NCBI GenBank assembly: GCA_025927835.1
Contig: JAICKR010000004.1
Location: forward strand, 1-51,721
Direction: 5' to 3'
Length of the DNA: 51,721 nucleotides
Source: Jatrophihabitans sp.
Lineage (GTDB): Bacteria > Actinomycetota > Actinomycetes > Mycobacteriales > Jatrophihabitantaceae
Position numbers and translations under genes: made by a program
Shown: positions 8,726-35,889 of the stretch, piece after piece
How the letters are laid out: each line of letters starts with the position of its first letter
Position numbering within the stretch: position 1 is the stretch's first letter
Notes under the pieces: model-generated
Databases searched by the model: none
The model's input: only the letters and a program-made list of their open reading frames with translations
What the model was told of the DNA's origin: nothing

Positions 8726-8884
8726 ACCGGTCGGCGAGGACGGCCGTCGCCGCGTTGCTACTACTGCAGCCATTTCCAGGCGGTGTCCATCGAACCGGGC
8801 ACCGCGCTGGGCCGTTCTCAGAGCTGAGAGGCGATCACCGACACTCGTCCGAGCACAGCCGGCCAGCGAGAGAAGGAAGCTGCC

Positions 8885-9229
8885 ATGAAGGAGATCGGTC
8901 CCGCCGTCGAGTTCCCGCCCGGCACGATCCGCGGAGTGGATCGCTACGCGGTCGGCAACAACGGCGCCTACTTCGCGGTCAGCCGGCGGTGCCGCCACCT
9001 GAGCGCCGACCTGGCCGGCGGCAGCATCGACGCCGACGGCTGCCTCGTCTGCCCGTGGCACCGGTCCGCGTACGACGTCCGCACCGGCCGGATGGTCCGC
9101 GGCCCGCAAGGCGTCTTTGCGAAGATCCCCGGGCTCGGCCCGCTGTTCAAGGGGCTGACCAAGGTCGTGCCGCTGCGTCGTCGACAGGTGTCGCTCCAGG
9201 ACGGCGACCTCTACCTCGCCGACTCCTGA
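8885..9229 (+). CDS. Rieske [2Fe-2S] domain protein
   Basis: 114 residues from an ATG with GGAAG 6 bases upstream. Both iron-sulfur cluster motifs are intact: Cys-x-His in SRRCRHLSADLAGG (about residues 35-48) and Cys-x-x-His in GCLVCPWHRSAYDVRTG (about residues 55-71). As a single-domain Rieske protein it probably acts as a ferredoxin-type electron carrier or assists an oxygenase. A basic tail (VVPLRRRQV) could mediate partner contact. The flavo-oxidases and exporter downstream are on the same strand, but the 239-base gap contains a separate promoter, so co-function is only a possibility. Confidence 0.92.
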   Translation: MKEIGPAVEFPPGTIRGVDRYAVGNNGAYFAVSRRCRHLSADLAGGSIDADGCLVCPWHRSAYDVRTGRMVRGPQGVFAKIPGLGPLFKGLTKVVPLRRRQVSLQDGDLYLADS

Positions 9230-9380
9230 CCGGAACTCCGCGGACTCAGGCAGAGCTGCCTCGACGGCGACGACGCGACGTTCCCACCGGCGCAGCCACT
9301 CGGCACGGGCTGCGCGTCGTGGGCGGTCGGCGCCCTGGCGAGCGATCCGGATGCCGCCGTGTTCGAACGCCCGTAACGCC

Positions 9381-9435
9381 TCAAGAACGTCCGCAAGGCC
9401 GCCGCAAGTACGCCGCAACCATCCGCTCCCAGGCT
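9381..9435 (+). promoter_or_regulatory. SARP-type promoter of the MFS exporter: four nCAA repeats plus -10
   Basis: TCAAG 9381, GCAAG 9393, GCAAG 9404 and GCAAC 9415 are direct repeats at steps of 12, 11 and 11 bp. The last 7-bp unit ends at 9421, and exactly 8 bp later comes CAGGCT (9430-9435), which fits a nAnnnT -10. There is no -35 hexamer; the repeats occupy its place. This is the known layout of SARP-activated promoters. Two other promoters in the window share it. Confidence 0.75.
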
Positions 9436-9468
9436 GTCGAGCAGCAACCCGACGTCCTAGGAGCCATC

Positions 9469-10908
9469 ATGTTTCGCCGTTCACCTGCCCGCCCGGGCAC
9501 GACGCTCGCCGTCGTCTGCATCGCGACCGCGATGCTCATGCTCGACATCGCCGTGATCAACAGCGCGCTGCCCCGCGTCGCGCTCGATCTGCACGCCAGC
9601 CTGTCCGGCGTCACCTGGATCATCGACGCTTACACCCTCGCGCTGGCCGCCACCGTGCTCACCACCGGCTCGCTGGCCGACCGGTTCGGCCGGCGGCGCA
9701 CCTTCCTGGTCGGTCTCGGCATCTTCACCGTCAGCTCGATCGTCTGCGCGCTGTCGGCCAACATCGCGACCCTGGACGCGTCCCGCGCGATTCAGGGCAT
9801 CGGCGGCGCGGCCATGTTCAGCACCTCGCTGGCGCTGCTGGCTACCGCCTACCCCGACTGGACGCAACGCGCCAAGGCGCTCGCGATCTACGGGGCGACC
9901 ATCGGCGCGTCGTTCGCCGTGGGTCCGCTGGTCGGCGGCGCGATGACGAGCTGGTTCGGCTGGCGCTCGGTGTTCTGGCTCAACGTGCCCATCGGCATCG
10001 TCTGCATCCTCGGCGCGCTGCGCGTGACCGAGTCGCGGGACCCGCACCCGCGCCGTCCCGACTGGATCGGCCAGGCGCTGTCGGCCGGCAGCCTGTTCCT
10101 GGTGATCCTCGCGCTGCTGCGCGGCAACGAGGTCGGCTGGGGCGCGACGTCCACCGTCGTCGAGTTCATCGGTGCCGGTGTGCTCGGTCTTGCGTTCCTT
10201 GCGGTCGAGTCGCGCATCGCCGAGCCGATGCTTCCGCTCACCCTGTTCCGCGACCGCACCTTCACCGGTATCCAGCTCACCGCGATGGGCATCTCCGCGT
10301 CGCTGTTCGCGATCTTCGTGTACATGACGTTCTACTTCCAGGGCGTCACGCACCTCTCGCCGATCGAGGCAGGCGCGGCCTACATCCCGGGCACGATGCT
10401 CAGCTTCGTGGTCGCCGGCGCCAGCGCGTCGCTGGTGACCCGCATCGACAGCCGCATCCTGCTCACCGTCGGCCTGGTATTCGTCGCGGCCGGTATGGGC
10501 CTCGGCCTGCTCGTCACCGCCGACTCGTCGTGGACCGCGCTGTTGCCCTCCGAACTGGTCGCGATGTTCGGCTGCGGCATCGTGAATCCGGTACTCAGCG
10601 GAATGGTGCTCAGCACCGCGCCGAAGGGCCAGGAAGGTCTCGCGGTCGGCGTGCACGACACCGCCCGGCACACGGGCATCGCGCTCGGCGTCGCCGTCCT
10701 CGGCGCGCTCATCCCGAGCCAGGCGCTGGCCACCAGCCACAGCGAGGCTGCCTTCGTCCACGGCTTCCACAACGCCGTGTGGGTGGCGACCGCCATCGCC
10801 GCACTCGGCGCGCTGGCGACTTGGCTGCTCGTCCGCCCGACGCGACAGAGCGACCCGGACGCCGAGCTGGCCCAGCTGGTGACCGAGGCCGAACTCGCCA
10901 CCGTCTGA
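9469..10908 (+). CDS. MFS transporter, DHA2 (EmrB/QacA) drug:H+ antiporter type
   Basis: 479 residues. ATG 9469 has AGGAG 5 bases upstream. About fourteen hydrophobic spans are visible. The motif-C-like stretch and the loop 2-3 signature (GSLADRFGRRRTFLVG, near residue 75) fit the DHA2 branch, as do MLDIAVINSALPRVALDL in span 1 and the antiporter-type VGPLVGGAMTSWFGWRSVFWLNVPIG. These proteins sit in the cytoplasmic membrane and export hydrophobic or cationic compounds using the proton gradient. The gene has SARP-type activator repeats in its promoter and lies just upstream of a SARP-LAL regulator, with a hairpin terminator between them. It probably exports the product or substrate of the two flavo-oxidases in the same regulon. 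Confidence 0.93.
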   Translation: MFRRSPARPGTTLAVVCIATAMLMLDIAVINSALPRVALDLHASLSGVTWIIDAYTLALAATVLTTGSLADRFGRRRTFLVGLGIFTVSSIVCALSANIATLDASRAIQGIGGAAMFSTSLALLATAYPDWTQRAKALAIYGATIGASFAVGPLVGGAMTSWFGWRSVFWLNVPIGIVCILGALRVTESRDPHPRRPDWIGQALSAGSLFLVILALLRGNEVGWGATSTVVEFIGAGVLGLAFLAVESRIAEPMLPLTLFRDRTFTGIQLTAMGISASLFAIFVYMTFYFQGVTHLSPIEAGAAYIPGTMLSFVVAGASASLVTRIDSRILLTVGLVFVAAGMGLGLLVTADSSWTALLPSELVAMFGCGIVNPVLSGMVLSTAPKGQEGLAVGVHDTARHTGIALGVAVLGALIPSQALATSHSEAAFVHGFHNAVWVATAIAALGALATWLLVRPTRQSDPDAELAQLVTEAELATV

Positions 10909-10922
10909 TGCACTCCCGTCCT

Positions 10923-10958
10923 CGCCCTGCGCCGCATGATCGACCGCGGCGCAGGGCG
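10923..10958 (+). terminator. Hairpin terminator after the MFS gene
   Basis: CGCCCTGCGCCGC (10923-10935) pairs perfectly with GCGGCGCAGGGCG (10946-10958) around a 10-base loop, 15 bases after the stop codon. It separates the exporter from the regulator gene, which has its own -10 at 11062-11067 (TAGGCT). Confidence 0.75.
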
Positions 10959-11088
10959 AAGCCGTTCCCGCGCACGGGACATCGCCGACAAGCCGGTACG
11001 AACTCACCGTCCGAGCCGGAAAATCGATCTTCGGGGACGTGTGCGCGGCGCGTCGATTACCTAGGCTTGCCACCCGGGAGGGAGTGCG

Positions 11089-14000
11089 GTGTCGGACGGT
11101 CGCGGGCTCGAGATCGGGGTGCTCGGCGAGTTCACCGCGTCGCACGACGGCACCCTGCTCGACCTCGGCGGACCCCGGCAGCGCGCCGTGCTCGCGATGC
11201 TCGTCATCGGCCGCGGACGGCTCGTCAGCGCCGAACAGCTGATCGACAACCTGTGGGCGGACGACCGGCCGGCCAACGAGTTCGCCAGCCTGCAGTCCTA
11301 CGTTTCGCACCTGCGCAAGCGGCTCGAGCCCGAGGCGGCCGCGCGCACCCGCTCCGGTGTCATCGCCCGGCAAGCGCACGGCTACGCGGTGCGGCTCGCG
11401 CCGGATGCCGTGGACGCGTGGCGCTTCGAGCAGTTGCTGACCGCTGACGGCGGCGACGTCGTCCAGCGGCTGACCGAGGCGCTGGCGTTGTGGCGGGGTG
11501 CGCCGCTGGCCGACTATGCCGACAGGCCGTGGGCGCAACCGGAGATCGTCCGGCTGGACGAGCTGCGCTCGGTCGCCCGCGAACGACTGGCGCAGGCGCG
11601 CGTCGACCGCGGCGAGGCCGCGGTGCTGGTCGGCGAGCTCGAGACCATGGTCGTCGAGGCGCCGCTGCGCGAGGAGCGCTGGCGACTGCTCGCGCTCGCG
11701 CTCTACCGGGCCAACCGGCAGGCCGATGCGCTCACCGCGCTGCGCCGGGCTCGCACGACCTTCGCCGACGAACTCGGTGTCGACCCCGGGCCCGCGCTGC
11801 GCGCACTGGAAGCCGACATCCTCGCGCAGGCACCGTCGCTCGACGCGCGGGCGCCCGCGCCGAGGGTGTTCGTCCCGACCGCCGCACTCGTGATGGAACG
11901 CACCGTCGACGACCTCGCCGAGCGCGACGCCGAGCTGGCGCAGCTGCAGCAGGCGCTGGCGCGGCTCGCCGGCGGCCAGCCGACCGGCGTGCTGATCGAA
12001 GGACCGGCCGGCATCGGCAAGACCCGGCTGCTCGACGAGCTCGGCGCGCAGGCCCGCGAGCACGGCGTACGCGTCCTGCTCGCCCGGGGCAGCCCGCTGG
12101 AGCGCGCGTTCGGCTACGGCGTCGTGCGCCAGCTGCTCGAACCCGCCATCAATGACGACATGCTCTGTGCCGCAGCCGCGCCGGCGCGGGCGGTGTTCGA
12201 CCTCGCCGCTGAGCACAGCGAGGGCTCGCTCGCCGTGCTGCACGCGCTCTACGCGGTCACCGCGCAGCTCGCCGCCGAGGGCCCGCTGCTGCTCGGCATC
12301 GACAACCTGCAGTGGACCGACGCCCCGTCGCTGCGCTACCTCGCCTACGTCGCACGGCGGATCTCCGGCGTCCCGACGATGATCGCCGCGACGATGCGCA
12401 CCGGTGAGTCACACGAGATCGCCGACCTCGTGGCCGAACTCGCCTGGGACACCGACACGCTGCTGCTGCGCCCGCAACCGCTGACCGAGGACGCGACCAG
12501 CGGGCTCGTCGCGCGTGCGTACGGGCGGCCCGCCGCGCCCCTGTTCGTCGCCGCCTGCCACCGCACCACCTCGGGCAACCCCCTGCTGTTGCGTCAGCTG
12601 CTGCAAGCCCTCGTCACCGCGGACGTGAAGCCGGACGCCTCGCACGCACAGGCGGTGCTGGCCGTCGGCTCGCGTGCGGTGTCGAGCCAGGTGCTGCTGC
12701 GGCTGCGCCGGATGCCCGAGCCGTGCCGGCGCGTCGCGCGCAGCGTCGCGGTGCTGGGCGAAGCCGCACAGCTGCCGCATGTCGCCGCGCTGTCCGCGCT
12801 GCCGGAAGCCGACACGGCGGCGGCCGTCGCCACCCTCACCCGCGCCGAGATCCTGCGCGACGAGCACACGCTCGGTTTCGTCCACCCGATCGTCGCCGAG
12901 GCGATCTATCGCGACGTCCCCTCGGTCGAGCGCGGGCTCGAACACGAGCGTGCGGCCGCACTCCTGCTCGCGCGCGACGCCGGCCCGGAGCAGGTCGGCG
13001 CGCATCTCCTGCTCGCCCCGACCCGCGGCGACGCGACAACCGTCCGGACGTTGCGTGCGGCGGCGGGGCGGGCCGCCGATCGCGGCGCGGTCGACAGCGC
13101 CGTCACCTACCTGCGCCGCGCGCTCGACGAACCACCCGATGCCGCCGCCCGCCCGCACGTACTGCTCGAACTCGGCCTCCAGGAGGCGCTCGTCGACGGA
13201 CGGGCCGGCACCGAGCGGCTGCGCGCCGCCTACGAACGCGCCGACGACCCCGAAACCCAGGTACGCATCGCCACCGCCATCGCGCACACGCAGGTGTTCG
13301 CGAGCGAGCGCGGCGCGGCGGTCACGTTCGCCCGCGACGCCATGCGCCGGGTGCCCGATGGCATGGACGATGCGCGCGACGGCCTCACCGCGCTGCTGCG
13401 CATCGGCGGGCTCATGCAGGCCGTCGACCCGGCGCTGTGGCGCGACGACGACGTGCCGGAACCGACCGGCACCGGCGTCGGCGCGCAGATGTTGCGCGCC
13501 ACGCTCGGGTGGGAGGCGATGCTCGCCGGCACCGACCGCGAGCGTGCCGTGCGCCTCGCCCGACGGGCGACCGCGGACGACCGGCTCTGGCACGGCGACA
13601 CCGGGCTGCTCTGGTGCATCGCCGCTGCCACCCGCATGTACGCCGACGACGACCTCGGCGACTTCTGGCTGCGCACCCGCACCGCCGCGCACGCACGCGG
13701 CTCGCTGTTCGCGGTGCTCGCCGTCAACCAATGGGAAGGCGTGTGGCGCTGGCGGCGCGGCGAACTCGCCGAGGCCAAGGCACTCATCAGCGAGGCGCAC
13801 GAGCAGGACCGGATGTGGGGCGGGTCGGGCGTCGGGCTGTCCTATTCCTACGGCGCGCTCGTCGGCATCGATCTCGACCGCGGCGACCTCGACGGCGCGC
13901 GGGCGCTGCTCGGCGCCGCACCTGACGACGCGCGCCACGGCGACGGCGGCCGGCTGCTGCGGCTCGTCAGCGCCGGCATGCTCGTCGGCGACGGACGCTT

Positions 14001-14604
14001 CGTCGAGGCGCTGGCCGCGCTGGACGACATCCGCGACCCGGTCGGCGTCGTCAACCCTGCCTTCAACCCGTGGCGGCGGGTGCGTGCGGCCGCGCTGGCC
14101 GGGCTCGGTCGCGCCGACGAGGCGCTGCCACTCGTCGAGGAGGAGGTCGCGCTGTTGCGTGCCTGGGGCGCGCCGTCCGCGTTGGGGCTCAGCCTCACCG
14201 ACCTCGGTCGGACGACCGGACGCCGTGAGCATTTCGTCGAATCGGTCGCGCTGCTCGAGAACACCGACGCCGCCTACGTGCTGAGCCGGGCCCGGTTGGC
14301 GCTCGCCGAGCACCCCGACACCCCTGCGCCGGAGGCGATCGCGCTGCTGCGCCAGGCGGTCGACGGCGCCGTCGCGTGCGATGCGCACGGTGTCGCCGAG
14401 CGGGCCTGCGCGGCGCTGCGCCGGCACGGCGTGGACGCCCCGGACCTCCCGGTCCGCACCCCCGGCCCGTCCGCCACCCAGCAGCGGGTCGCCGCGCTCG
14501 CCGCCCGCGGCCTGGACGTCGCGGCCATCGCGCAGGCGCTGTTCCTCACCCCGCAGACCGTCCAGACCGCGCTGGGTGAGCTCGCCGTCGGGGGCGTCCG
14601 GTGA
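11089..14604 (+). CDS. SARP-LAL hybrid transcriptional activator (BTAD + AAA ATPase + C-terminal HTH)
   Basis: 1171 residues from GTG 11089, preceded by GGGAGGGAG. Residues about 5-95 form an OmpR-type winged helix (LEIGVLGEFTA, GGPRQRAVLAMLVI, SLQSYVSHLRKRLEP). Residues 98-240 are the helical BTAD domain of SARPs (FADELGVDPGPALRALEADIL). A STAND-type ATPase follows, with Walker A GPAGIGKT at 305-312 and Walker B LLLGIDNLQW near 400-408. A long helical sensor region fills most of the rest. The last 45 residues (SATQQRVAALAARGLDVAAIAQ, then LFLTPQTVQTAL) look like a LuxR-type HTH, shortened at the end. Such proteins integrate a signal with ATP binding and activate secondary-metabolism genes. 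The flanking exporter and oxidase genes carry matching repeat promoters, so it is very likely their activator. A TAGGCT -10 at 11062 and a ribosome site drive its own expression. Confidence 0.93.
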   Translation: MSDGRGLEIGVLGEFTASHDGTLLDLGGPRQRAVLAMLVIGRGRLVSAEQLIDNLWADDRPANEFASLQSYVSHLRKRLEPEAAARTRSGVIARQAHGYAVRLAPDAVDAWRFEQLLTADGGDVVQRLTEALALWRGAPLADYADRPWAQPEIVRLDELRSVARERLAQARVDRGEAAVLVGELETMVVEAPLREERWRLLALALYRANRQADALTALRRARTTFADELGVDPGPALRALEADILAQAPSLDARAPAPRVFVPTAALVMERTVDDLAERDAELAQLQQALARLAGGQPTGVLIEGPAGIGKTRLLDELGAQAREHGVRVLLARGSPLERAFGYGVVRQLLEPAINDDMLCAAAAPARAVFDLAAEHSEGSLAVLHALYAVTAQLAAEGPLLLGIDNLQWTDAPSLRYLAYVARRISGVPTMIAATMRTGESHEIADLVAELAWDTDTLLLRPQPLTEDATSGLVARAYGRPAAPLFVAACHRTTSGNPLLLRQLLQALVTADVKPDASHAQAVLAVGSRAVSSQVLLRLRRMPEPCRRVARSVAVLGEAAQLPHVAALSALPEADTAAAVATLTRAEILRDEHTLGFVHPIVAEAIYRDVPSVERGLEHERAAALLLARDAGPEQVGAHLLLAPTRGDATTVRTLRAAAGRAADRGAVDSAVTYLRRALDEPPDAAARPHVLLELGLQEALVDGRAGTERLRAAYERADDPETQVRIATAIAHTQVFASERGAAVTFARDAMRRVPDGMDDARDGLTALLRIGGLMQAVDPALWRDDDVPEPTGTGVGAQMLRATLGWEAMLAGTDRERAVRLARRATADDRLWHGDTGLLWCIAAATRMYADDDLGDFWLRTRTAAHARGSLFAVLAVNQWEGVWRWRRGELAEAKALISEAHEQDRMWGGSGVGLSYSYGALVGIDLDRGDLDGARALLGAAPDDARHGDGGRLLRLVSAGMLVGDGRFVEALAALDDIRDPVGVVNPAFNPWRRVRAAALAGLGRADEALPLVEEEVALLRAWGAPSALGLSLTDLGRTTGRREHFVESVALLENTDAAYVLSRARLALAEHPDTPAPEAIALLRQAVDGAVACDAHGVAERACAALRRHGVDAPDLPVRTPGPSATQQRVAALAARGLDVAAIAQALFLTPQTVQTALGELAVGGVR

Positions 14605-14610
14605 GCCGTC

Positions 14611-14642
14611 TCAAGCCGACCGCAAGTCCGCGGGGCGACGAT
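14611..14642 (+). promoter_or_regulatory. SARP-type promoter of the first flavo-oxidase: two nCAA repeats plus -10
   Basis: TCAAG 14611 and GCAAG 14622 lie 11 bp apart, starting 7 bases after the regulator's stop codon. The second 7-bp unit ends at 14628, and GACGAT (nAnnnT) begins 8 bp later at 14637. The register is the same as in the promoters at 9381 and 16063. Confidence 0.68.
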
Positions 14643-14677
14643 GGTGTCACCTTGCCGACAGTGAGGAGCACCGTCCG

Positions 14678-16057
14678 TTGAGCAGATCCACGACCGCATC
14701 ACCGCCGCCTGCGGCAGCCGAGTCGCTGCGCGGGCTCTGCGGCGGTGCGGTGCACCTGCCCGGCGACCCGGGCTTCGACATGGCGAGCTCGCCGTGGAAC
14801 CTGCAGGTGCAGCATCACCCCGCGGCGGTCGCGTACCCCGCCTCGCCGCGCGAGGTTGCCGACGTGCTGCGCGCGGCCCGGGGCGCCGGCCTGCAGGTCG
14901 CGCCGCAGGGCACCGGGCATGGCGCGGCTCCCCTCGACGGTCACCTCGGCGCGTCGGTGCTGCTGCACACCGCCGGGTTGAACGAGCTGTCGATCGACGT
15001 CGACACGCGCCGGGCGCGGGCCGGCGCCGGCGTGCTGTGGGGCGACCTGGCCGAGGCCGCCGGGCGCGACGGGCTCGTCGGGCTGCACCCGTCCGCCCCG
15101 GACGTGGGTGTCGTCGGCTACTCGATCGGCGGCGGCATCGGCTGGTACGCGCGCCGCCTGGGCCTGCAATGTCACTCCATCACCGCCGCCGAGGTCGTCC
15201 TCGCCGACGGCAGCGTCGTGCGGGCCAGCGCCGACGAGGAGCCCGAGTTGTTCTGGGGACTGCGCGGCGGCGGCATGCCGCTCGGCGTCGTCACCGCCCT
15301 GGAGTTCCAGCTCTACCCCCTGGACACGGTGGTCGCCGGCTTCCTCGCCTGGGACCGGACACGGATGGAGCAGGTCCTTCCGGCCTGGGCGCAGTGGACG
15401 ACGACGGCGCCCGACGCGGCAACCACGTCGCTGCGGCTCGTGACCGCACCGCCGATGCCGCAGATCCCGGCCGAGCTGCACTTCCGCGAACTGCTCGTCA
15501 TCGACGGCGCGGTGCTGGGCAGCGACGACGAGGCGGCGGCGATCCTCGCGCCGCTGCGTGCGCTGCGTCCCGAGTTCGACACGGTGACCCGGGTACCGGC
15601 GCCGTCGCTCGTCCGGCTGCACCTCGAGCCCGAGGGCCCGACCCCCGGATACGCCAGCAGCCGGCTGATGAGCGGGCTGCCCGACGACGCGATCGCCGCG
15701 GTGCTCGACATCGCCGGCCCGGGCGCCGCGGACGGCCCCGACATCACCGAGTTCCGTCAGCTGGGCGGCGCGCTGCACCGCCCGAACGAGGGCGCCGCGC
15801 TGTCGTCGCTGGACGGCGAGTTCCTCGTCCTCGGTTTCGGGCTGCGTCCGGACCCGGCCGAGTGGGACGAGGCACGCGAGCAGGCGGTGCGGTTGCTGGA
15901 CGCGTTGCAGCCGTGGCAGAACGGCCGCGAGTACCTGCCGATGCTCGACGAGCGCAGTGACACCCGTAAGGCGTTCCCGCCCGGTGTGCACACGCGGCTG
16001 TCCGCGTTGCGCGCCGCCGTCGACCCGGATCGGTTGTTCGTCGGGCCGCACCTGTAG
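14678..16057 (+). CDS. FAD-linked oxidase, berberine-bridge-enzyme / 6-hydroxynicotine-oxidase type (paralog 1)
   Basis: 459 residues from TTG 14678, with GAGGAG 9 bases upstream; no better start agrees with the promoter. The PCMH-type FAD domain is clear: AVAYPASPREVADVLRAARGAG near 45-65, then APQGTGHGAA, whose His is the likely 8-alpha covalent FAD anchor, and VGVVGYSIGGGIGWYARRLG around 150. The Cys that gives a second covalent bond in bicovalent BBE enzymes is absent (SAPDVGVVGY). The substrate half ends with a BBE-like segment (YLPMLDERSDTRKAF). Such enzymes oxidise alcohols, amines or phenolics with O2, releasing H2O2. It has its own SARP-type promoter and a paralog directly downstream. 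Confidence 0.9.
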   Translation: MSRSTTASPPPAAAESLRGLCGGAVHLPGDPGFDMASSPWNLQVQHHPAAVAYPASPREVADVLRAARGAGLQVAPQGTGHGAAPLDGHLGASVLLHTAGLNELSIDVDTRRARAGAGVLWGDLAEAAGRDGLVGLHPSAPDVGVVGYSIGGGIGWYARRLGLQCHSITAAEVVLADGSVVRASADEEPELFWGLRGGGMPLGVVTALEFQLYPLDTVVAGFLAWDRTRMEQVLPAWAQWTTTAPDAATTSLRLVTAPPMPQIPAELHFRELLVIDGAVLGSDDEAAAILAPLRALRPEFDTVTRVPAPSLVRLHLEPEGPTPGYASSRLMSGLPDDAIAAVLDIAGPGAADGPDITEFRQLGGALHRPNEGAALSSLDGEFLVLGFGLRPDPAEWDEAREQAVRLLDALQPWQNGREYLPMLDERSDTRKAFPPGVHTRLSALRAAVDPDRLFVGPHL

Positions 16058-16062
16058 CTGTC

Positions 16063-16128
16063 TCAAGTCCGTCGCAAGTTCTGGCTCAACGCCGGCGCAA
16101 CCGCGTCCCAAGAGGTGCGCCACAGGCT
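16063..16128 (+). promoter_or_regulatory. SARP-type promoter of the second flavo-oxidase: five nCAA repeats plus -10
   Basis: TCAAG 16063, GCAAG 16074, TCAAC 16086, GCAAC 16097 and CCAAG 16108 are spaced 11, 12, 11 and 11 bp. After the last 7-bp unit come 8 bp and then CAGGCT (16123-16128), the same hexamer as in the exporter promoter. CAGGCTGTC is identical in both and sits at the same distance from the final repeat, although this array has one more unit. Confidence 0.75.
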
Positions 16129-16165
16129 GTCTCCACACACAACGACGTGACCTGGAGGCACCGAA

Positions 16166-17536
16166 ATGACGTACACACTTTCCCTGACCGAAGTCCTCGA
16201 CGAGCTGCGCGCCGTCGTCACCGGCACGGTCGCCGAGCCCGGCGACGCCGCATACGCCGAGCTCGTCACCCCGTGGAATGTCGCCGTGGAGATGCAGCCG
16301 ACCGCGGTGGTCGCGGTACGCAGCGCGGCCGACGTCAGCGAGACTGTCGCGTTCGCGCGCCGGCACGGCATGACGGTCGGCGTACAGGCCACCGGCCACG
16401 GCGCGATCTCCTCACTCGCCGGGCACCTGCTCGTCGTCACCCGGGAGCTGGACGAGCTGACGGTGCACCCGGCCGAGCGGTGGGCGCGCGCCGGCGCCGG
16501 TGTGAAGTGGGCGCGGGTCATCGAGGCGGCCGCCCCGCACGGGCTCGCGCCGCTGAACGGGTCGTCGAGCGACGTCGGCGTGGTCGGCTACACGACCGGT
16601 GGCGGCGTCGGGCCGATGGCGCGGACGTTCGGCCTCGCCTCCGACCGGGTGCGGGCGTTCGAGGTCGTCACCGGTGACGGCGTGCTGCGGCGCGTGACGC
16701 CGACTCAGCACGCCGACCTGTTCTTCGCGCTGCGCGGCGGCAAGGGCGTCGGCGGCATCGTCACCGCCGTCGAGTTCGACCTGCTGGACGTGCCGACGTT
16801 CTACGGCGGCGCGCTCTACTTCGACGGTGCGGACATCCCCGCCGTCATCGACCGTTGGCGCTCGTGGTCGGTTGCACTGCCCGAGCGGGCCACGACCTCG
16901 TTCGTGATCCTCCAGCTGCCGGACGGCCCGGAGTTCCCGCCGTTCCTGGCCGGCCGCACGTCGATCGGCGTCCGGTTCCTGTGGGTCGGCGACGCCGCGG
17001 ACGGTGCGCAGCTGCTCGCACCGATGCGCGCGGTCGCGCCGATGCTGTTCGACGACGTGGCGGTCAAGCCGTACGAGGCCATCGACTCGGTGCACGCCGA
17101 CCCCGTCGACCCGATGCCGGTGACAGACCGCGGCATGCTGCTGACGTCACTGACCGACGAAGCGGTCGAGCGGTTGCTCGCGCTGGTCGGCCCGGGTTCG
17201 GGTTCGCCGCAGGTCGCGGTCGAGATCCGGCAGGCCGGTGGGGCGCTGGGCCGCGAAGGCGCGCACCCGTCCGCGTTCGACCATCGCGGCGCCGGCTACA
17301 GCGTGCTGACCATCGGCATCGCGTTCGACCCGCGCGTCGCTCCGCATTCAGCGGCCCTGTTCCGGTCGTTGTCGGAGTGGGATTTCGGTGGTGTGTGGCC
17401 GAACTTCGCACCGCCGCACGACGCAGTGACTGCGCGGCGAGCGTATGGCCCGGCCACGCTCGCCCGGCTCTCCTCGGTGGCCGAGCAGTACGACCCGGAC
17501 GGCGTCCTCGCCGCAGGAGCCTTCGCCCGGGCCTGA
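16166..17536 (+). CDS. FAD-linked oxidase, BBE-like (paralog 2)
   Basis: 456 residues from ATG 16166, with GGAGG 8 bases upstream. It shares the domain order of the preceding oxidase: VAVRSAADVSETVAFARRHG, GVQATGHGAISS with the likely FAD-linking His, SSSDVGVVGYTTGGGVGPMART without the second anchoring Cys, and LFFALRGGKGVGGIVTAVEF. The C-terminus lacks the full BBE segment and ends ARLSSVAEQYDPDGVLAAG, the usual close of such oxidases. Sequence identity to paralog 1 is moderate, so the two may act on successive intermediates rather than be redundant. It has the largest SARP repeat array of the three promoters and a strong hairpin terminator behind it. Confidence 0.9.
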   Translation: MTYTLSLTEVLDELRAVVTGTVAEPGDAAYAELVTPWNVAVEMQPTAVVAVRSAADVSETVAFARRHGMTVGVQATGHGAISSLAGHLLVVTRELDELTVHPAERWARAGAGVKWARVIEAAAPHGLAPLNGSSSDVGVVGYTTGGGVGPMARTFGLASDRVRAFEVVTGDGVLRRVTPTQHADLFFALRGGKGVGGIVTAVEFDLLDVPTFYGGALYFDGADIPAVIDRWRSWSVALPERATTSFVILQLPDGPEFPPFLAGRTSIGVRFLWVGDAADGAQLLAPMRAVAPMLFDDVAVKPYEAIDSVHADPVDPMPVTDRGMLLTSLTDEAVERLLALVGPGSGSPQVAVEIRQAGGALGREGAHPSAFDHRGAGYSVLTIGIAFDPRVAPHSAALFRSLSEWDFGGVWPNFAPPHDAVTARRAYGPATLARLSSVAEQYDPDGVLAAGAFARA

Positions 17537-17550
17537 TCGATCGGCAGCGA

Positions 17551-17587
17551 CCGGTCGGGTGGCGCGAGATTCGCGCCACCCGATCGG
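17551..17587 (+). terminator. Hairpin terminator closing the SARP regulon
   Basis: CGGGTGGCGCGA (17556-17567) pairs with TCGCGCCACCCG (17571-17582) around a 3-base loop. The stem extends outward by five more pairs including one G-U, giving about 17 bp. It starts 15 bases after the stop codon at 17536 and has no U-tract. Confidence 0.8.
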
Positions 17588-17674
17588 GCCGACCGGCTGC
17601 GAGCACGGTGCTGGCGTCGGTGGACCGATCTTGACGGGGAACTCGGTGATTGCGTGCCGAGTGGGTGCGCATCG

Positions 17675-17704
17675 TTGACGTTGTGGCCCGTGTGTCGATA
17701 GAAC
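17675..17704 (+). promoter_or_regulatory. Likely promoter of the giant gene pair
   Basis: TTGACG (17675-17680) is followed 18 bases later by TAGAAC (17699-17704). A small inverted repeat GCAAT-N6-ATTGC (17715-17730) lies just downstream in the leader, where a regulator could bind. Confidence 0.45.
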
Positions 17705-17761
17705 GCGCGTGTTCGCAATGCCGGAATTGCAACACCTTGCCGAAGAGAGGCAGGTACGGCC

Positions 17762-20700
17762 ATGCCGCCTCGCCCGCGCACCAACAAGGCCACGACGAAG
17801 GCCGTGAAGAAGGTCGCGAAGAAGGCGGTCAAGAAGGCGGTACCGGCCAAGAAGACCGCGACGAAGGCAGCGACCGTCGGCACCGTCAAGCCGGTCACCT
17901 TCACGCAGGGCACGGCGCAGCTCATCGAGCTGCAGGTGCCGCTACCGGGCGCACCACAGCCCGACGTCGAGTTCCGGATCGTGCGCCCCGACGACCTCGT
18001 CGTGCTGGCGGTGCGCTGCTACGCGATGGACCTGGTCAAGGACGACCTCGGCCCGGCACTGGTGCCGGAGGGCGACGACGCGTTCATGATCGTCAGCTAC
18101 ACGTTCCAACACGTCGGTGAGCAGGCGTTCCTCGAACAGGGCTTCCCGCCACACGTCGTCGAAGCTCGGCACACGCCGGTCGAAGTACTGGTCGCCGAGC
18201 CGTCCCGCCTTGCCTACGACGTCCCGGCAGACGAGCGCATACCGTTCAGCACCGACGGCGTGCTCGCGGCGCTGAGCCGGTTGCAGCTGCGCGTCGTGCC
18301 GCTGGCCACGCCGCGCCCGGCGGCCACCCGGGTGATCAAGTTCCCGCTCGTCACGCTCGAGGACGGGACCGTGTTGCAGTACTCGGGCAACGGCATCTCC
18401 CTGGTGAAGAACCGCGGCAGGCAGACCGCGCCGCAGACGGTCGACGAGCTCATCACCCACTCCGCGTCGCTACGCGCGGCGCGCACCCTGCTCGCGTACG
18501 CGGGCGCCATCGACACGGTCGCCCATTCCTCGCTGGGCGACGTCACCCGTGGCCCGATCACGATCAACCCCGGGCCGAGGCGAGCCACTCGCGCGCCGCG
18601 ATTCGACGAGACGGCGATCGAAGCGCCGTGGCGGCTGATGATCTCGCCGAGCACGCTGGGCGGGTTCACGCACGCCACGAAGCCGGTGCACGCGCCGCAG
18701 GACGTGAACCGGATCGAGCTGTGGCACAGCCGTCTCGGCGTCCGCCACATCGACCCGGACGGGGACATCACGATCGACGAACGCGACGACCCGCAGCGCG
18801 CCATCCGCGCGGTCTGGGCGCGCGACGACGCCGGCGCTCGGCCGGTGTCGGACATCAACAGCCACCCGTTCCGCACGTCGCTCAACGGACGGGACCGATC
18901 GGTGCTCGTGACCGAGAGCGCCGACACGTCCATCGCGAAACCGCAGCCGGTCGACGCCAAACGGCTGTACCTGTCGAGCCAGGGCGCGTGGCTCGATCTG
19001 CACGGCGCGTGGGACACCGACCTCTACGGGGCGCTGCCGGGCAAGATCGAGTCCTGGGACCACATCGCGCCGATGGGACGCGACCAGTTCGTCAAGGTCG
19101 TCTACCCGGGCTACCTCTACCCCTTCGGGCACAAGGCGTCGTTCATCAAGGTCACCGAGCGGCGCATCGACCCCGACGTGGTGCCGCCGGTCGCCTATCT
19201 GTACCAGCACTTCTTCATCCTCGTGAAGGAGCCGATTCGCTACTACGACAGCCTCGACATGCCGTTCGGCAAAGTGGAGCTGCGTCCGGTCGTGACACCG
19301 TTCCTCGACGACCCGAACGACCTCGCCAACCCCAACGCCATCAAGAACCAGGACCTCTTCTGGCCGACGCTGGACGGCGTCAAGTTCGAGTTCACGCTCG
19401 ACTGTCTGGACCAGGAGAAGCGGCGCGTCGTGCTGCAGGCGCCGCTGATGTTCGTCAGCGCATCCTTCGGCAGCACCAAGGCCGAGCGAAACCTCGTCCG
19501 CGACTCGTACGTGAAACCCGACACCGGCAAACCCGCCCCTCGCGAGATCCCGGGGCTGTCCCGCTCCATCGCGCTCGCGAAGAGCCGGAAGCCGGGCGAC
19601 ACCGCGTTCGAGACGCACGCGCTGCGCTTCACCGGTGAACCCGGCACGCCGACTGCGCCGACCTCGACGCCGAAACTGTCCGGCGCGAACATCGTCGTCC
19701 CGGCGATGAAACACCTCGCCCCGGCAGCCGACGCCGTGGACGTCCATTACGCGACGCCGTACCTGAACCACGGCTTCGGCGGCGTGAACGGCACCCCGCA
19801 GGTCTTCCTCGAGCTCGACACGATGTCGCCGATCGAGTTCGGCGACGGCAGCCCTGCGGCCAGCACCGCGAAGTCGGGCGGCTTCCTGCAGCCGAGCCTG
19901 CCGGTGCGTGGTCTGTCGCGGGCGCTGGGCACGGTCGGTCAGGTCGACAGCATCGTCAACCCGCCGGCGGGCAAGCAGCCGTTCGACCCGATGACGTTCC
20001 TCGATGGGGTGCTGCCGAAGCTGTTCGGGCTCTTCTCCCTGGTCGACATCCTCGAAGCGGTCGGTCTCGACAAGGCGCCGTCCTTCGTTACCGAGACCCT
20101 GAACGAGGTCGCACAGCTGCTTGCCGACCTGCAGTCGCTGCAGCAGACGCTCGAGAACGGCGTCACCGAGCTCAGCACGCTGGCCGTCAACGCGGCGACC
20201 GCACCGCAGCAGCAGGCGGCCGACGCCGCGAAGACCGCACTCGACGCGGTCAAGGCCGCGTTCGCGCCGAAGCTCGCCGCGCTCACGGGCGACATCTCTG
20301 CGCTGACGTCCTCCGGTGACGTCGCGACGTTCACCACGAACGCGACCGCGATCCTCACCGACCTCGCCGCAGTGCTCACCACGCTCGACCAGCAGACCAA
20401 GACGCTGCAGCTGCCGCCGGTCGTCAAGGCGCAGCTGCAGCGGCTCGTCGCGGCACTGGCGCCGCTCATGGATGTCGCGAAGATCGCGAAGCAGATCCAG
20501 TCGATCGTCGCCTTCGTTCAAGGCCTTGACCCGAGCAACCTCGCACTGAAGTGCAGCTTCACCTGGCAGCCGCCGCTGAAGAACTACCCCGACGGCCCTG
20601 CCGACAAGGCGCTGTTCTACGTCGACCCGCAGGGCCTCGTCCTCTCCATCGAGGCGCGCGCGTCCGGCAAGGACGGGGTCGGCGTCGACGTGCTCGCGCA

Positions 20701-21589
20701 GCTGTCCGACTTCGGGCTGAACCTGTTCGAGGACTCGACGCTCATCACGATCGCGATCGACCGGCTGTCGTTCCGGGCCAGCAACGGGAGCAAGCCCGAG
20801 GTCGACGTCGTCATGCGCAACATGGAGTGGCTCGGCGCGCTCTCGTTCATCCAGACGCTCGAGACACTCATCCCGTCGGACGGGTTCAGCGACCCGCCGT
20901 ATGTGGACGTCGACGCGAGCGGCGTGAAGGCCGGCTTCGATCTCGCGCTGCCCAGCATCGGCGTCGGCGTCTTCAGCCTGGAGAACATCTCCCTCGGCGC
21001 CGACGTCAACGTGCCGTTCCTCGGCGACGCGGTCACCGTCGGCTTCTACTTCTGCACGCGGGAGAAGCCGTTCCGGCTCACCGTCATGTGCGTCGGCGGC
21101 GGTGGGTTCGTCGGCATCCGGCTCTCGCCCAAGGGCCTCGTGCTGCTCGAGATGTCGCTGGAGGCGTGTGCCCAGCTCGGCATCGACCTCGGCGTGGCCT
21201 CCGGGTCGGTATCGATCACGATCGGGGTCTACCTGCGGCTGGAGGGCGAGAAGGGTTCGCTCACCGGTTACTTCCGCATCCGCGGCGAGGTCGACGTCCT
21301 CGGCGGCATCTTCTCCGCGTCGATCACGCTGGAACTCTCACTGACCTACCAGTTCGACACCGGCAAGCTGACCGGACGTGCCTCGATCCAGATCGAGGTC
21401 ACCATCTTCTTCTTCTCCTTCTCGGTCGAGGTGTCGTGCCAGCGGACGCTGGCAGGCTCGAACGGCGACCCGACCTTCGCCGAGCTGCTCGGCATCACCA
21501 ACGGCGGGCAGGACCTGCCCGATCCCGGCGCACCGGACGGCGGAGTCCCTGACTGGACCGACTACTGCGACGCGTTTGCGAGCGTGTGA
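17762..21589 (+). CDS. Giant protein of unknown function with Lys/Ala-rich tail, helical middle and beta-rich C-terminal half
   Basis: 1275 residues from ATG 17762. Residues 1-45 are strongly basic, with many Lys in AxKK-type repeats (TKAVKKVAKKAVKKAVPAKK), like actinobacterial histone-like or HupB tails. Residues about 50-740 show no recognised domain. Residues about 770-935 are helical and Leu/Ala-rich with coiled-coil character (LLADLQSLQQTLENGVTEL). From about 945 onward the chain has many alternating-polarity strands (VSITIGVYLRLEG, GYFRIRGEVDVLGG, SASITLELSLTYQF, IQIEVTIFFFSFSVEVSC), as in long beta-sheets or hydrophobic grooves. There is no signal peptide. It is followed after 3 bases by another giant gene, so the two proteins are probably made together and may form a complex. 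I do not recognise a characterised family. Confidence 0.85.
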   Translation: MPPRPRTNKATTKAVKKVAKKAVKKAVPAKKTATKAATVGTVKPVTFTQGTAQLIELQVPLPGAPQPDVEFRIVRPDDLVVLAVRCYAMDLVKDDLGPALVPEGDDAFMIVSYTFQHVGEQAFLEQGFPPHVVEARHTPVEVLVAEPSRLAYDVPADERIPFSTDGVLAALSRLQLRVVPLATPRPAATRVIKFPLVTLEDGTVLQYSGNGISLVKNRGRQTAPQTVDELITHSASLRAARTLLAYAGAIDTVAHSSLGDVTRGPITINPGPRRATRAPRFDETAIEAPWRLMISPSTLGGFTHATKPVHAPQDVNRIELWHSRLGVRHIDPDGDITIDERDDPQRAIRAVWARDDAGARPVSDINSHPFRTSLNGRDRSVLVTESADTSIAKPQPVDAKRLYLSSQGAWLDLHGAWDTDLYGALPGKIESWDHIAPMGRDQFVKVVYPGYLYPFGHKASFIKVTERRIDPDVVPPVAYLYQHFFILVKEPIRYYDSLDMPFGKVELRPVVTPFLDDPNDLANPNAIKNQDLFWPTLDGVKFEFTLDCLDQEKRRVVLQAPLMFVSASFGSTKAERNLVRDSYVKPDTGKPAPREIPGLSRSIALAKSRKPGDTAFETHALRFTGEPGTPTAPTSTPKLSGANIVVPAMKHLAPAADAVDVHYATPYLNHGFGGVNGTPQVFLELDTMSPIEFGDGSPAASTAKSGGFLQPSLPVRGLSRALGTVGQVDSIVNPPAGKQPFDPMTFLDGVLPKLFGLFSLVDILEAVGLDKAPSFVTETLNEVAQLLADLQSLQQTLENGVTELSTLAVNAATAPQQQAADAAKTALDAVKAAFAPKLAALTGDISALTSSGDVATFTTNATAILTDLAAVLTTLDQQTKTLQLPPVVKAQLQRLVAALAPLMDVAKIAKQIQSIVAFVQGLDPSNLALKCSFTWQPPLKNYPDGPADKALFYVDPQGLVLSIEARASGKDGVGVDVLAQLSDFGLNLFEDSTLITIAIDRLSFRASNGSKPEVDVVMRNMEWLGALSFIQTLETLIPSDGFSDPPYVDVDASGVKAGFDLALPSIGVGVFSLENISLGADVNVPFLGDAVTVGFYFCTREKPFRLTVMCVGGGGFVGIRLSPKGLVLLEMSLEACAQLGIDLGVASGSVSITIGVYLRLEGEKGSLTGYFRIRGEVDVLGGIFSASITLELSLTYQFDTGKLTGRASIQIEVTIFFFSFSVEVSCQRTLAGSNGDPTFAELLGITNGGQDLPDPGAPDGGVPDWTDYCDAFASV

Positions 21590-21592
21590 GCG

Positions 21593-24500
21593 ATGGCCGT
21601 CATCGAATCCTTCCTCGTCACCGCACTGCCGTTCAGCGCCGACCCGGCGCAACACCGGCACATCTCGCTGTTCATCACCCACCGGCTTACGCCGAACGAT
21701 GCGCAGGGCGAGGTGGGTGACTTCCCGAACATCGCTCGGTGGACGGACCTGCTCGCCGGCTCGACGGTTACCGTCACCGGGCACACCTCCGGCGGCGCCG
21801 CGCGCGCGATCGCCGTCACGCCGCAGTGGGCGCAACTCGACACGACACTGTGGCCGCGCGTGTTCTCCGAGGACCTACCCGTGCTGCCATGGAACACACC
21901 CGACCCGGCGAGCAAGCAGTGGCGCACCTTCCCGGCGCACCGCATGCAGGCGCACGCCCTGACGGCGCACGCGCTGAGCACGTACTCCTCGCCCGTCACG
22001 CCACCGTCGACCAGCCAGAGTTTGCTCGCCGCGCCTCTGCTGCAGGCGCTGTTCCACGTGCGCGACTCGTCGGTCGCGCACCTGCTGGAGTCCCAGCCCG
22101 AGCTCGACGCGCGGGTGACGAAACTGCTCGACAGCGGCACCGCGCATGGCCCGTTCGTCGCCGATGTCGACGCGTCGCTGCGCTACTTGATGCTGCTGGC
22201 CGGCGATGCGCATCTCGCGCATCGCTATTACGACCGTCCCGAAGAGCAAGGCGAGTACCACGCGAAGCCGACCGGCGCGAGGACGCCTCCGGTGGTGCAG
22301 CCGCCGCCGGACTTCCACCGGCGCGCGAGCCTCATCGGCGACCTGTCGCCGCTGCTGCGCAAGCTGGGCCTGGTGATCGACCTCGAGGTCATCGACGTGA
22401 GTCAGCTCGCCGGGCTTGCCGACATCACCGCGCAGGTCACCGTCCCCGGTCTGGCGAATCCGATCACGACGCAGCCGCGGGTGAGCTGCCAACTGGCCGG
22501 CGGCACCTTCACCGCGGTGTCGACGGGCGACTACCACCAGGCGATGCTGCGGCTCGGCGACGAGGACCTCTACACGCTGCTCGATCTCGACCCGGACGCG
22601 TCCGGACTCAAGCTCGAGCAGTACGTCCGCAACATCCCGCGAATGGCCGCCGTCGAGGCCAACGGCGATCCCGGCAACGCGGCGCCGTCCACGCTGCGCG
22701 CCACCGGATTCGCGATCGCGCGCAACGACCGCGCCACCCCGGTCAAGGAACAGCTCACCGACGCTCCGAAGAAGGACGCGGACCTGGCGTCCGGCAAGGC
22801 GGCACCGCTCTACCTCGAGGATGTCGCCCGCGGCGTGCGGCTCGAGGTGTGGGATGACGTGTCGAAGATCTGGCACTCCCTGCACCGGCGACTGCTGACC
22901 GTCGACATCGACGGCGCGGGCGGGCCGGTGCTCAGCGAGGCCCCGGACTGCGGCTTCCTGCAGGGCGCGGCGCTGACGCGCAGCGGGGACGACCCGAACG
23001 CGCCGCTGAACCTGCACGAGGTCCTCGCCGGCTGGGACGGGTGGTCGCTGTCGGCGCCTCGGCCCGGCAAGGTCGTCGTGCACGACGACGATCCGGGTCA
23101 CGACCGCGAGCACGAGAAGCTCGTCGACCCGCCCGTCCCCGTTCCGGACCCGGACCACCCGGTCGCGAACACCGTGAAGGTGGAGCCCGGCACGCTGCCG
23201 CGGCTGCGCTACGGGCGCAACTACTCGTTCCGGGCGTGGGCCGTCGACCTCGCCGGGAACAGCTCGCCGCACACCGTCGCCGGGCCGGCGGACGCAGGCA
23301 CGTCCGGGGTCAGCGGAACCGGACCCCCAGCCGGCGCGGGGAACGCCCCCGCGAGGGCGAGCGCGCCCGACGGGCCACTGGCATCGCACGCCGCCGAAGC
23401 GGCCGCAACCGAGCGATTGAGCGCGCTGGGTCCCACCACGCTCGGCGCCGGTGCCACCGCGAAGACGCTGTCCGAGGATCTGCGCCAACTGCGCGGCGCC
23501 GTTCTGCAAGCACGTCCACTGCCCCAGGGCCTGCAGCTCGACGCGAGCGACGCGCCACGCAGCGTTGCCGAGGTCGCGACCATCACCGGCCACGAGGAGC
23601 TGGATCGGGTGATCAAGGCGCGCCGGACCGCGCGCGTGCCCGCGCCGGCAGCCGCTGCGCGTCAGGCGCTCGTCGAGCAGGCGATGACGACGCAGCTGCA
23701 CGCGGCACCCGAGCTCGTCCGCCGTACCGACACGCAGGTCGCGTCGGCGACGTTCGCGCAGGCGCTCACCACCTCCGCGGCGTCGTTGCCCGAGTTGCAG
23801 CAGGTCGGGCTCGGCGGCGTGTACGTCGGCCTGCTGGACGGGGTCACCGCGCCGCGTCCGTTCCTGCGCTGGGATCCGGTGCTCGAACCGACCGTCGTTC
23901 CCCGCTTCGCCTACACCGACGCCGAATCGCTGCTCACCCTCGTGATCCGCTCCGGCGTGGAAGGGCCGGGCCCGGACGGCATCACCATGACGGTCGTCCC
24001 GCCCGATCAGTACGTCGCGTCCGTGCAAGCCGCCACGCCTGACTACGCGACGAACTGGCGTGCGGACTCGCAACGGCATCTCGTCCCGCCGAAGGCCACG
24101 CAGTACGAGTGCGAGCTGCACGGTCTCTTCGACGCCGCGATGGGTGCCGGCGACCCGGCGTCGATCAAGGCGGCGCTCGCGGTCGCGCTGCGCGAGTCGG
24201 GCACGTTGACCGACACGACGATCGCCGACCTGGCGGAGCCGGGCGTGCGCAACCCGGTCGTCGGCATCGAGCTCGTCACCGGCCCGACGGCGGACGACCC
24301 GCTGCACACCGACCCGGCGCAGATCCCGCGCGGCGACGGGCTCAGCCGCGGCCAGTACGCGATTCACACCGAGGAAGACCTGGCCCTGCCGTACCTGCCC
24401 GACCCGCTTGCAGACGGGGTGTCCTTCATGTTCCCGGACGCGGGCAAGGGCACGGTGCTCTCCGGCCTGCTCGCGATGGAGGGGACGCACCTGCCGTACG

Positions 24501-34043: not shown

Positions 34044-34109
34044 ACCCTAGGCCGCCGAACCGGCCGGGCGTCCGGCTTTCGCTCTGGGCAGACAGCCGCT
34101 GGATAGCAT
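34044..34109. promoter_or_regulatory. Divergent -10 elements between the hydrolase and DUF3556 genes
   Basis: On the minus strand TAGGGT (34049-34044) precedes the ATG at 34035 by 8 bases. On the plus strand TAGCAT (34104-34109) would start a leader of about 45 bases before ATG 34162. Confidence 0.45.
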
Positions 34110-34161
34110 GGCGCGCGCTCGGTGCGCCGTTGCGGCGACCAGCGCCGATCGAGGGGTCCAG

Positions 34162-35889
34162 ATGGGTTTCTTGAAGCCGACCACGCCGGTCATCGACCAC
34201 GCGGAATGGTCGACCGGCACCCGCGCGGAGCGGATCGTGCCGATGGCCCGGCACTGGGCCGAGGTCGGGTTCGGCACGCCGGTCGTGCTGCATCTCTTCT
34301 ACGTCGTGAAGATCCTGGTCTACACGCTCACGGCCTGGCTGGTCGCGCTGAGCACGACGGGCATCGACGGCTTCACCGACGTCCGGCACTGGTACGCCGA
34401 GCCGATCGTCTTCGAGAAGGTCGTGCTGTTCACGATGCTGTTCGAGGTCGTCGGGCTGGGCTGCGGGTTCGGGCCGCTGAACAACCGCTACATCCCGCCG
34501 ATGGGATCGATCCTCTACTGGCTGCGGCCGCGGACGATCCGGCTGCCGCCGTGGCCGCGCCGGGTGCCGCTGACGAAAGGCGACACCCGGACGCCGCTCG
34601 ATGTGCTGCTGTACGCCGCGCTGCTCGTCGCCCTCGTCATTGCGCTGTGCTCCGACGGCACCGGGCCGATGCCCGAGCTCGGCACGTCGGTCGGGGTGCT
34701 GCCGAGCTGGCAGATCTGGACGGTCGTCGGCCTGCTCGCCGTGCTCGGCCTGCGCGACAAGGTGATCTTCCTGGCCGCGCGCGGCGAGGTGTACGGCAGC
34801 CTCACCGTGGCGTTCCTGTTCGCCCAGCAGTCCGGTGTCGACATGATCATCGCGGCAAAGCGGGTGTGCGTGACGATCTGGCTCGGCGCGGCCTCGTCCA
34901 AGCTCACCAAGCACTTCCCGTTCGTGATCTCGACGATGATGAGCAACAACCCGGTGCTGCGCCCGAAGTGGCTCAAGCGCCGGTTCTTCGAGCACTTCCC
35001 GGACGATCTGCGACCCGGGTTCCCGTCCCGGCTGATCGCGCACATCTCCACCGCGATCGAGGGTCTCGTCCCGATCGTGCTGTTCTTCAGCCACGGCGGA
35101 ACACTGGGCACCGTCGCCGCGATCGTCATGCTCTGCTTCCACTTCGGCATCCTGTCCGCTATCCCGATGGGCGTGCCGCTCGAGTGGAACGTCTTCATGA
35201 TGTTCAGCGTCGTGGCCCTGTTCGTCGGGCACCCGCACGCCGGCCTCGGCGACGCGACCAGCCCGCTGCCGTTCCTGCTGTTCGCGCTCGTCGCCGGCAC
35301 GGTCGTCCTCGGCAACCTCTTCCCGCGCACGATCTCGTTCCTGCCGGGCATGCGGTACTACGCCGGCAACTGGGACGTCGGCCTGTGGTGTGTGAAGCCG
35401 TCCGCGTCGGCGAAGATCGAGAAGGAGGTCGTCTCGATCGCGAGCATGCCGCAGTCGCAGATGGCGAAGGTCTACGGCAGCCCGCAGATGGCCGAGATGT
35501 ACCTCTACATGGGCTATGCGTTCCGCGCGTTCAACAGCCACGGCCGCGCGATGTTCACCCTCGCCCACCGCGCCATGGCCGGGCTGGACGAGTCGGAGTA
35601 CATCTTGATCGACGGCGAGCGCATCTGCAGCACCGCGGTGGGCTGGAACTTCGGCGACGGCCACATGCACAACGAACAGCTGATCGAGGCGCTGCAGCGC
35701 CGCTGCGCCTTCGAGCCGGGCGAGGTGCGGGTCGTCCTCATAGACGCCCAGCCCATCCACCGGCAGCGCCAGGAGTACCGGCTCGTCGACGCGGCCACGG
35801 GCGAGTTCGAGCGCGGCCACGTCCGGGTCGCCGACATGGTCACCGCGCAGCCGTGGGACGACACGATCCCCGTGCACGTCAGCGGATGA
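34162..35889 (+). CDS. DUF3556 transmembrane protein
   Basis: 575 residues. The start is set at ATG 34162, which has GAGGGG 6 bases upstream and gives the family N-terminus ([20 protein letters not shown]); an earlier in-frame ATG overlaps the -10. The family, found mainly in mycobacteria and relatives, is recognised from [38 protein letters not shown] and [21 protein letters not shown]. About eight to ten hydrophobic spans occupy the first 430 residues and a soluble domain follows ([13 protein letters not shown] onward). Function is not established. Its stop overlaps the ATG of the UvrA-like gene by 4 bases, so translation of the two is coupled. Confidence 0.9.

Follow-up and report, generated by a model that had tools for sequence, protein, structure and literature searches.

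What switches on the exporter and the two flavo-oxidase genes that flank a large regulator gene in this stretch of Jatrophihabitans DNA (hereafter the window, all 51,721 nucleotides of it), and can that control be read from their promoters? The sequence-only reading had proposed three arrays of nCAA repeats at 11- or 12-bp steps, each with an nAnnnT hexamer at a fixed distance, and a search for chains of CAA[GC] units, together with a reading of the stretches themselves, found all of them present. The features in question are the following.

9381..9421, + strand: array 1, four nCAA units, CAA starts at 9382, 9394, 9405 and 9416 (steps 12, 11, 11)
9430..9435, + strand: proposed -10 hexamer of the exporter gene, CAGGCT, 10 bp past the last CAAC, placed by the conserved geometry
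9469..10908, + strand: MFS exporter gene, DHA2/EmrB type (Pfam MFS_1, 6.2e-58)
10923..10958, + strand: perfect 13-bp inverted repeat with a 10-nt loop between the exporter and SARP genes, from sequence reading
11062..11067, + strand: possible -10 of the SARP gene, TAGGCT, from sequence reading
11089..14604, + strand: gene of a large SARP (SARP-LAL) with a winged HTH, BTAD, AAA_16, a TPR-like stretch and a degenerate C-terminal LuxR-type HTH (Pfam)
14611..14628, + strand: array 2, two nCAAG units, CAA starts at 14612 and 14623 (step 11)
14637..14642, + strand: proposed -10 hexamer of oxidase A, GACGAT, from sequence reading and the chain search
14678..16057, + strand: gene of flavo-oxidase A (FAD_binding_4, Pfam 2e-26), TTG start
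16063..16114, + strand: array 3, five nCAA units, CAA starts at 16064, 16075, 16087, 16098 and 16109 (steps 11, 12, 11, 11)
16123..16128, + strand: proposed -10 hexamer of oxidase B, CAGGCT, from sequence reading and the chain search
16166..17536, + strand: gene of flavo-oxidase B (FAD_binding_4, Pfam 1.1e-22)

In all three arrays exactly 10 bp separate the last CAAx from the nAnnnT hexamer, and this gap is equal to the 8 bp given by the sequence-only reading, which counted the unit as a 7-bp nCAAnnn. The arrays are all intergenic, most of their steps are 11 bp, and a scan of positions 9000 to 18000 for a sigma-70-like promoter with a -35 box found none, in agreement with the earlier description of these promoters as lacking a -35. 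The layout is that published for SARP operators (11-bp or 22-bp steps, with the 3′ repeat 8 bp from the -10), apart from one 12-bp step each in arrays 1 and 3. That step is dispensable, and the invariant core consists of the two promoter-proximal units and the gap.

The repeats were then weighed against their background. Chains of at least three CAA units within the window were confined to arrays 1 and 3, while about 0.1 such chains would be expected in first-order Markov random sequence of the same dinucleotide frequencies. The source genome comprises 3.3 Mb and is 76% complete, and further targets may be missing from it. A genome-wide pattern search, which had been suggested together with the arrays and was run here in a two-unit version (CAAS-N7-CAAS-N10-nAnnnT), gave 5 matches, 3 of them inside the 6.7-kb cassette stretch, versus 3 for the reversed pattern. 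CAAS triplets with 11/11 steps (26 bases) occurred, among the matches listed, only within arrays 1 and 3; the other CAAS triplets of the genome mostly had 12/12 steps (28 bases), a step that fits the codon phase of coding DNA. Taken together, CAAS triplets at 11- or 12-bp steps were as frequent in the genome as in the reversed control, and the CAAG-pair pattern showed no excess over 61 whole genomes (about 79 matches versus about 108 in the reversed control, summed). Thus, the CAAG-pair pattern is no regulon finder alone, and becomes informative only in the vicinity of SARP genes or when at least three units are present. The common 12/12-step triplets and the lack of genome-wide enrichment of the two-unit pattern are the data that would speak for chance or codon-phased repeats as the origin of the arrays. 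One of the genome's two other CAAS-pair sites (G000:C205:4695-4725, at locus L224) is some 5 kb away from another SARP gene and precedes an aldo/keto-reductase-like ORF, a possible further SARP target.

The protein encoded at 11089 carries the domains of its family, with an N-terminal OmpR-type winged HTH followed by a BTAD (Trans_reg_C, 2.6e-11; BTAD, 6.9e-33; Pfam) as in SARPs, and an ATP-binding LAL-like half (AAA_16, 2.2e-20; Pfam) as in SARP-LALs. Its nearest solved relatives are EmbR and AfsR. The GerE-like segment at its C terminus is degenerate (17.7 bits, with a cutoff of 23.5), and GerE scores above the cutoff at the C terminus of the relatives in L039, L053, and L054. Upstream of the SARP gene we found no CAA array, and there is thus no sign of autoregulation through the CAA box. 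The inverted repeat at 10923-10958 is possibly a transcript end, without a T run, and it was absent from the output of the terminator scan.

Classical SARPs have TCGAG-type boxes, and nCAAG, aligned in the 8-bp register, differs from TCGAG only at the third base and in its free first base. For the SARP-LALs PimR, SanG, and PolR, the published operator consensus consists of CGGCAAG heptamers at 11-bp steps (PMC5930380, PMC3367932), and PimR binding requires at least two heptamers, with 4-bp spacers preferred (PMC5930380). The bases ahead of CAAG vary among the window units (CCGCAAG, TCGCAAG, and TCTCAAG), and their CAAG core and 4-bp spacing fit this consensus. The sequence-only reading had taken a CAA-core box to be unlike the TCGAG-type boxes of classical SARPs, and its view of the box as unusual has to be withdrawn, since CGGCAAG is already the consensus of these three regulators. 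The 11089 protein and its sites resemble them in combining an N-terminal SARP with an ATP-binding half and in having CAAG-core heptamers at 11-bp steps in two or more units. As with SanG and PolR, the operator here covers the -35 position, whereas that of PimR lies well upstream of it. SARP-LALs of the PimR type are described in the literature as lacking a C-terminal LuxR-type HTH; in contrast, relatives of the 11089 protein keep a GerE-like C terminus, and the predicted targets here are redox and export genes and not an antibiotic cluster. A search of 395 genomes with the PimR operator as the positive control found nothing.

A second likeness is to AfsR of Streptomyces coelicolor, also a large SARP with a nucleotide-binding domain and TPRs, whose promoter has 11-bp direct repeats, a 3′ repeat 8 bp from the -10 and a poor or no -35 (PMC10936776). 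In the structure of AfsR with RNA polymerase, two 11-bp repeats that span -40 to -19 are occupied by a SARP dimer, which touches sigma region 4 and the alpha C-terminal domain; the -35 of this promoter is poor (PMC10936776). AfsR is, however, a global regulator with a TTCA-type box, unlike the CAAG box here, and its recognition-helix residues T88/R92 correspond in the alignment to S70/H74 of the 11089 protein. The DNA word and the mechanism are already known in kind, and what is new here is how widely the clade extends, together with its predicted redox targets and the C-terminal LuxR-type HTH.

A scan of genome contigs with the SARP alignment A1 yielded 80 loci from many actinobacterial groups, picked by SARP similarity and not by the box. 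The SARP co-occurs with an oxidase A relative (at least 46% identity) in 15 distinct loci, one of which is the window; the others are L039 and L040 (two genomes of the same family), L053 (Kribbella), L054 (a Nitriliruptorales MAG), L055, L070, and L075 (Frankia and Parafrankia), L057, L060, and L073 (Dactylosporangium), L063 (Hamadaea), L066 (Nocardioides), L071 (an Actinomycetota MAG), and L077 (Geodermatophilus). Two CAA units at an 11-bp step, the fixed gap and nAnnnT precede the oxidase A gene in 15/15 of these loci, and the site also precedes the oxidase B gene in 4/5. In L039 and L040, relatives with 46% identity, a CAAG array separates the SARP gene from the flavo-oxidase gene that follows. 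The five-unit array before oxidase B, with steps of 11, 12, 11, and 11, recurs exactly in L054, and extra upstream units are offset by about 14 bp in L070 and L075 and by 12 bp in the window and L054. At L053 and L066, a CTTGAGCCGG element (CAAG on the other strand) lies 5′ of the oxidase B array, and some promoters, as at these two loci, may hold an inverted unit.

The geometry proved specific over 1.78 Mb of SARP loci, in which nAnnnT stood at gap 10 in 32/36 arrays of at least three units versus 0 to 3 at any other gap. Among the CAAG pairs of these loci, 52/96 with an 11-bp step had the hexamer, whereas none of the other steps between 5 and 19 gave more than 1; in the same test of hexamer placement tetramers other than CAAG gave 0 to 6. 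Reversed sequence of the SARP neighbourhoods contained the site in 2/176 cases. When all tetramers and gaps were searched for the SARP class of the window, CAAG with gap 10 ranked first, with 28 loci and none in the reversed control. An alignment of 87 sites brought out a third CAAG unit, one step further upstream, for which no selection had been made. The arrays are far from chance. Their mostly 11-bp steps, their intergenic position and this extreme conservation and gap specificity already contradict an origin as chance or codon-phased repeats, to which we assign only a vanishing likelihood.

On the grounds of geometry, conservation, the CGGCAAG operators of SARP-LALs and the AfsR structure, the arrays are read as SARP operators. 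Our preferred interpretation, with a probability of about 0.82 as judged from sequence comparison, is that through them the cassette SARP-LAL (11089-14604) would activate the MFS gene and both oxidase genes from SARP-type promoters without a -35. The conservation at all the SARP-oxidase A loci and the word search that singled out CAAG at gap 10 lend support to the same proposal in the sequence-only reading, which had named the 11089 SARP as the likely regulator and these three genes as its targets. SARP domains would occupy neighbouring nCAAG units, spaced by one helical turn, and the two promoter-proximal units would replace the missing -35 element. If the hexamer is placed at -12 to -7, the proximal CAA triplets would begin at positions -37 and -26, which matches the AfsR units to about 1 bp. 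The bound SARP would bring sigma region 4 and the alpha C-terminal domain to the weak nAnnnT -10, and further upstream units (up to five in all, sometimes past a 12- or 14-bp step) are probably auxiliary and add cooperativity to the binding. A signal presumably controls the activator through its AAA/TPR half.

Several points tell against this interpretation: the SARP gene has no array of its own, the CAAG pair is not enriched in the genomes of relatives, the genome holds other SARPs, and the link between helix class and box fails the independent-pair test described below. With at least 10 further SARP- or AAA-related matches in the genome and a CAAG word widely common to SARP clades, the arrays could be genuine SARP operators that answer chiefly to another SARP, with the cassette SARP acting on other genes or on these as well. 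We consider this improbable, as the site travels with the pair of 11089-type SARP and oxidase over distant actinobacteria, and the CAAG-pair site is entirely absent from two same-genus genomes in which no close relative of the 11089 SARP was found. Still less credible is a non-SARP activator that binds direct repeats spaced by a helical turn, with the SARP gene as a chance neighbour, because the geometry equals published SARP geometry, the word equals the SARP-LAL consensus, and the site accompanies one SARP class while a sister class has another word in a similar layout.

Among the predicted targets, the exporter scored 227.8 bits against NCBIfam efflux_EmrB, slightly below the cutoff of 230.2. 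Oxidases A and B are 36% identical to each other, and their closest solved relatives are the mitomycin radical oxidase McrA (PDB 9r43; 4.5e-52 for A and 1e-82 for B) and then EncM. The cassette resembles the bagremycin and ferroverdin clusters (FevR/BagI, FevB/BagJ, FevA1/A2, BagK/G; PMC6692506), in which a SARP, a transporter and two FAD-dependent oxygenases of the same families occur together. FevR, however, is a small SARP (its profile has 315 positions), unlike the large one here, and the scores against the fev/bag families lie far under their cutoffs; for the FevA1/BagK profile NF041226, with an NCBIfam cutoff of 800 bits, oxidase B scored 400 and oxidase A 241. Core biosynthetic genes of the fev/bag type were not seen here, and no PKS, NRPS or similar core gene was seen among the neighbours scanned by Pfam and NCBIfam, two large ones being without a family match. 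Literature searches on a regulon of a SARP with FAD oxidases and on the mitomycin radical oxidase found nothing relevant. The cassette is most likely a small-molecule oxidation-and-efflux module, for detoxification or tailoring. That the exporter and the two oxidases form one pathway, as had been suggested, is possible but unproven, and detoxification is at least as likely as a single biosynthetic pathway.

Around the cassette, a short Rieske [2Fe-2S] protein gene (8828-9229) ends just 5′ of array 1. Directly 3′ of the cassette, 17762-21589 and 21593-26236 encode very large proteins of 1275 and 1547 aa with no Pfam match, the first of which starts with an alanine/lysine-rich, histone-H1-like tail. 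A DUF3556 transmembrane protein is encoded at 34108-35889 (full-length match, E 2.7e-271).

The same search over all tetramers and gaps was applied to a sister SARP class, where the top word was GCTG/CTGA in 16/21 loci, with 0 in the reversed control. Members of this class, which have a TFVAALRR-like recognition helix (L047, L052, L083, L107, L118, L173, and others), carry GCTGA repeats at 11-bp steps and then nAnnnT at a fixed distance. The word thus appears to differ from one SARP clade to another, within a layout that stays similar. The box was found nearby in 46/61 proteins with [AS]70/[HN]74 versus 22/115 others. A residue code in the recognition helix gained no support from phylogenetically independent pairs, of which only 5 were usable, and the association of helix class with box may reflect shared ancestry alone.

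We give roughly even odds to a broader picture. Large SARPs of a widespread and so far undescribed actinobacterial clade, many of them with DNA-binding domains at both ends, would run small redox or detoxification modules (FAD oxidases, hemerythrin-like proteins, alcohol dehydrogenases, MMPL or MFS exporters) and not antibiotic clusters; the regulons of this clade would be readable near these genes from the strict CAAG-N7-CAAG-N10-nAnnnT pattern, and a sister clade would use GCTGA in a similar layout. From sequence alone, the analysis connects a conserved lineage of large SARPs with concrete target promoters, and it does so for groups in which we found no described SARP regulon. Judging by these targets, small redox and export modules may often be what "antibiotic regulatory proteins" control. 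The CAAG and GCTGA clades, with their distinct words, provide material for deciphering a SARP recognition code, and the strict geometry makes the three promoters directly and cheaply testable.

In the wider set of SARP loci, the genes behind CAAG sites encode hemerythrin-like proteins (23), flavo-oxidases (22), protein-kinase-like proteins (6), alcohol dehydrogenases (5), MMPL exporters (3) and small groups. Of these names, hemerythrin, alcohol dehydrogenase and MMPL were each checked by Pfam in one or two members, and kinase was read from N termini only. The hemerythrin-like protein gene, the commonest behind a CAAG array near other SARPs of the class (L101, L116, L119, L227, and others), is divergent from or near the SARP gene, and such targets suggest oxygen or redox control.
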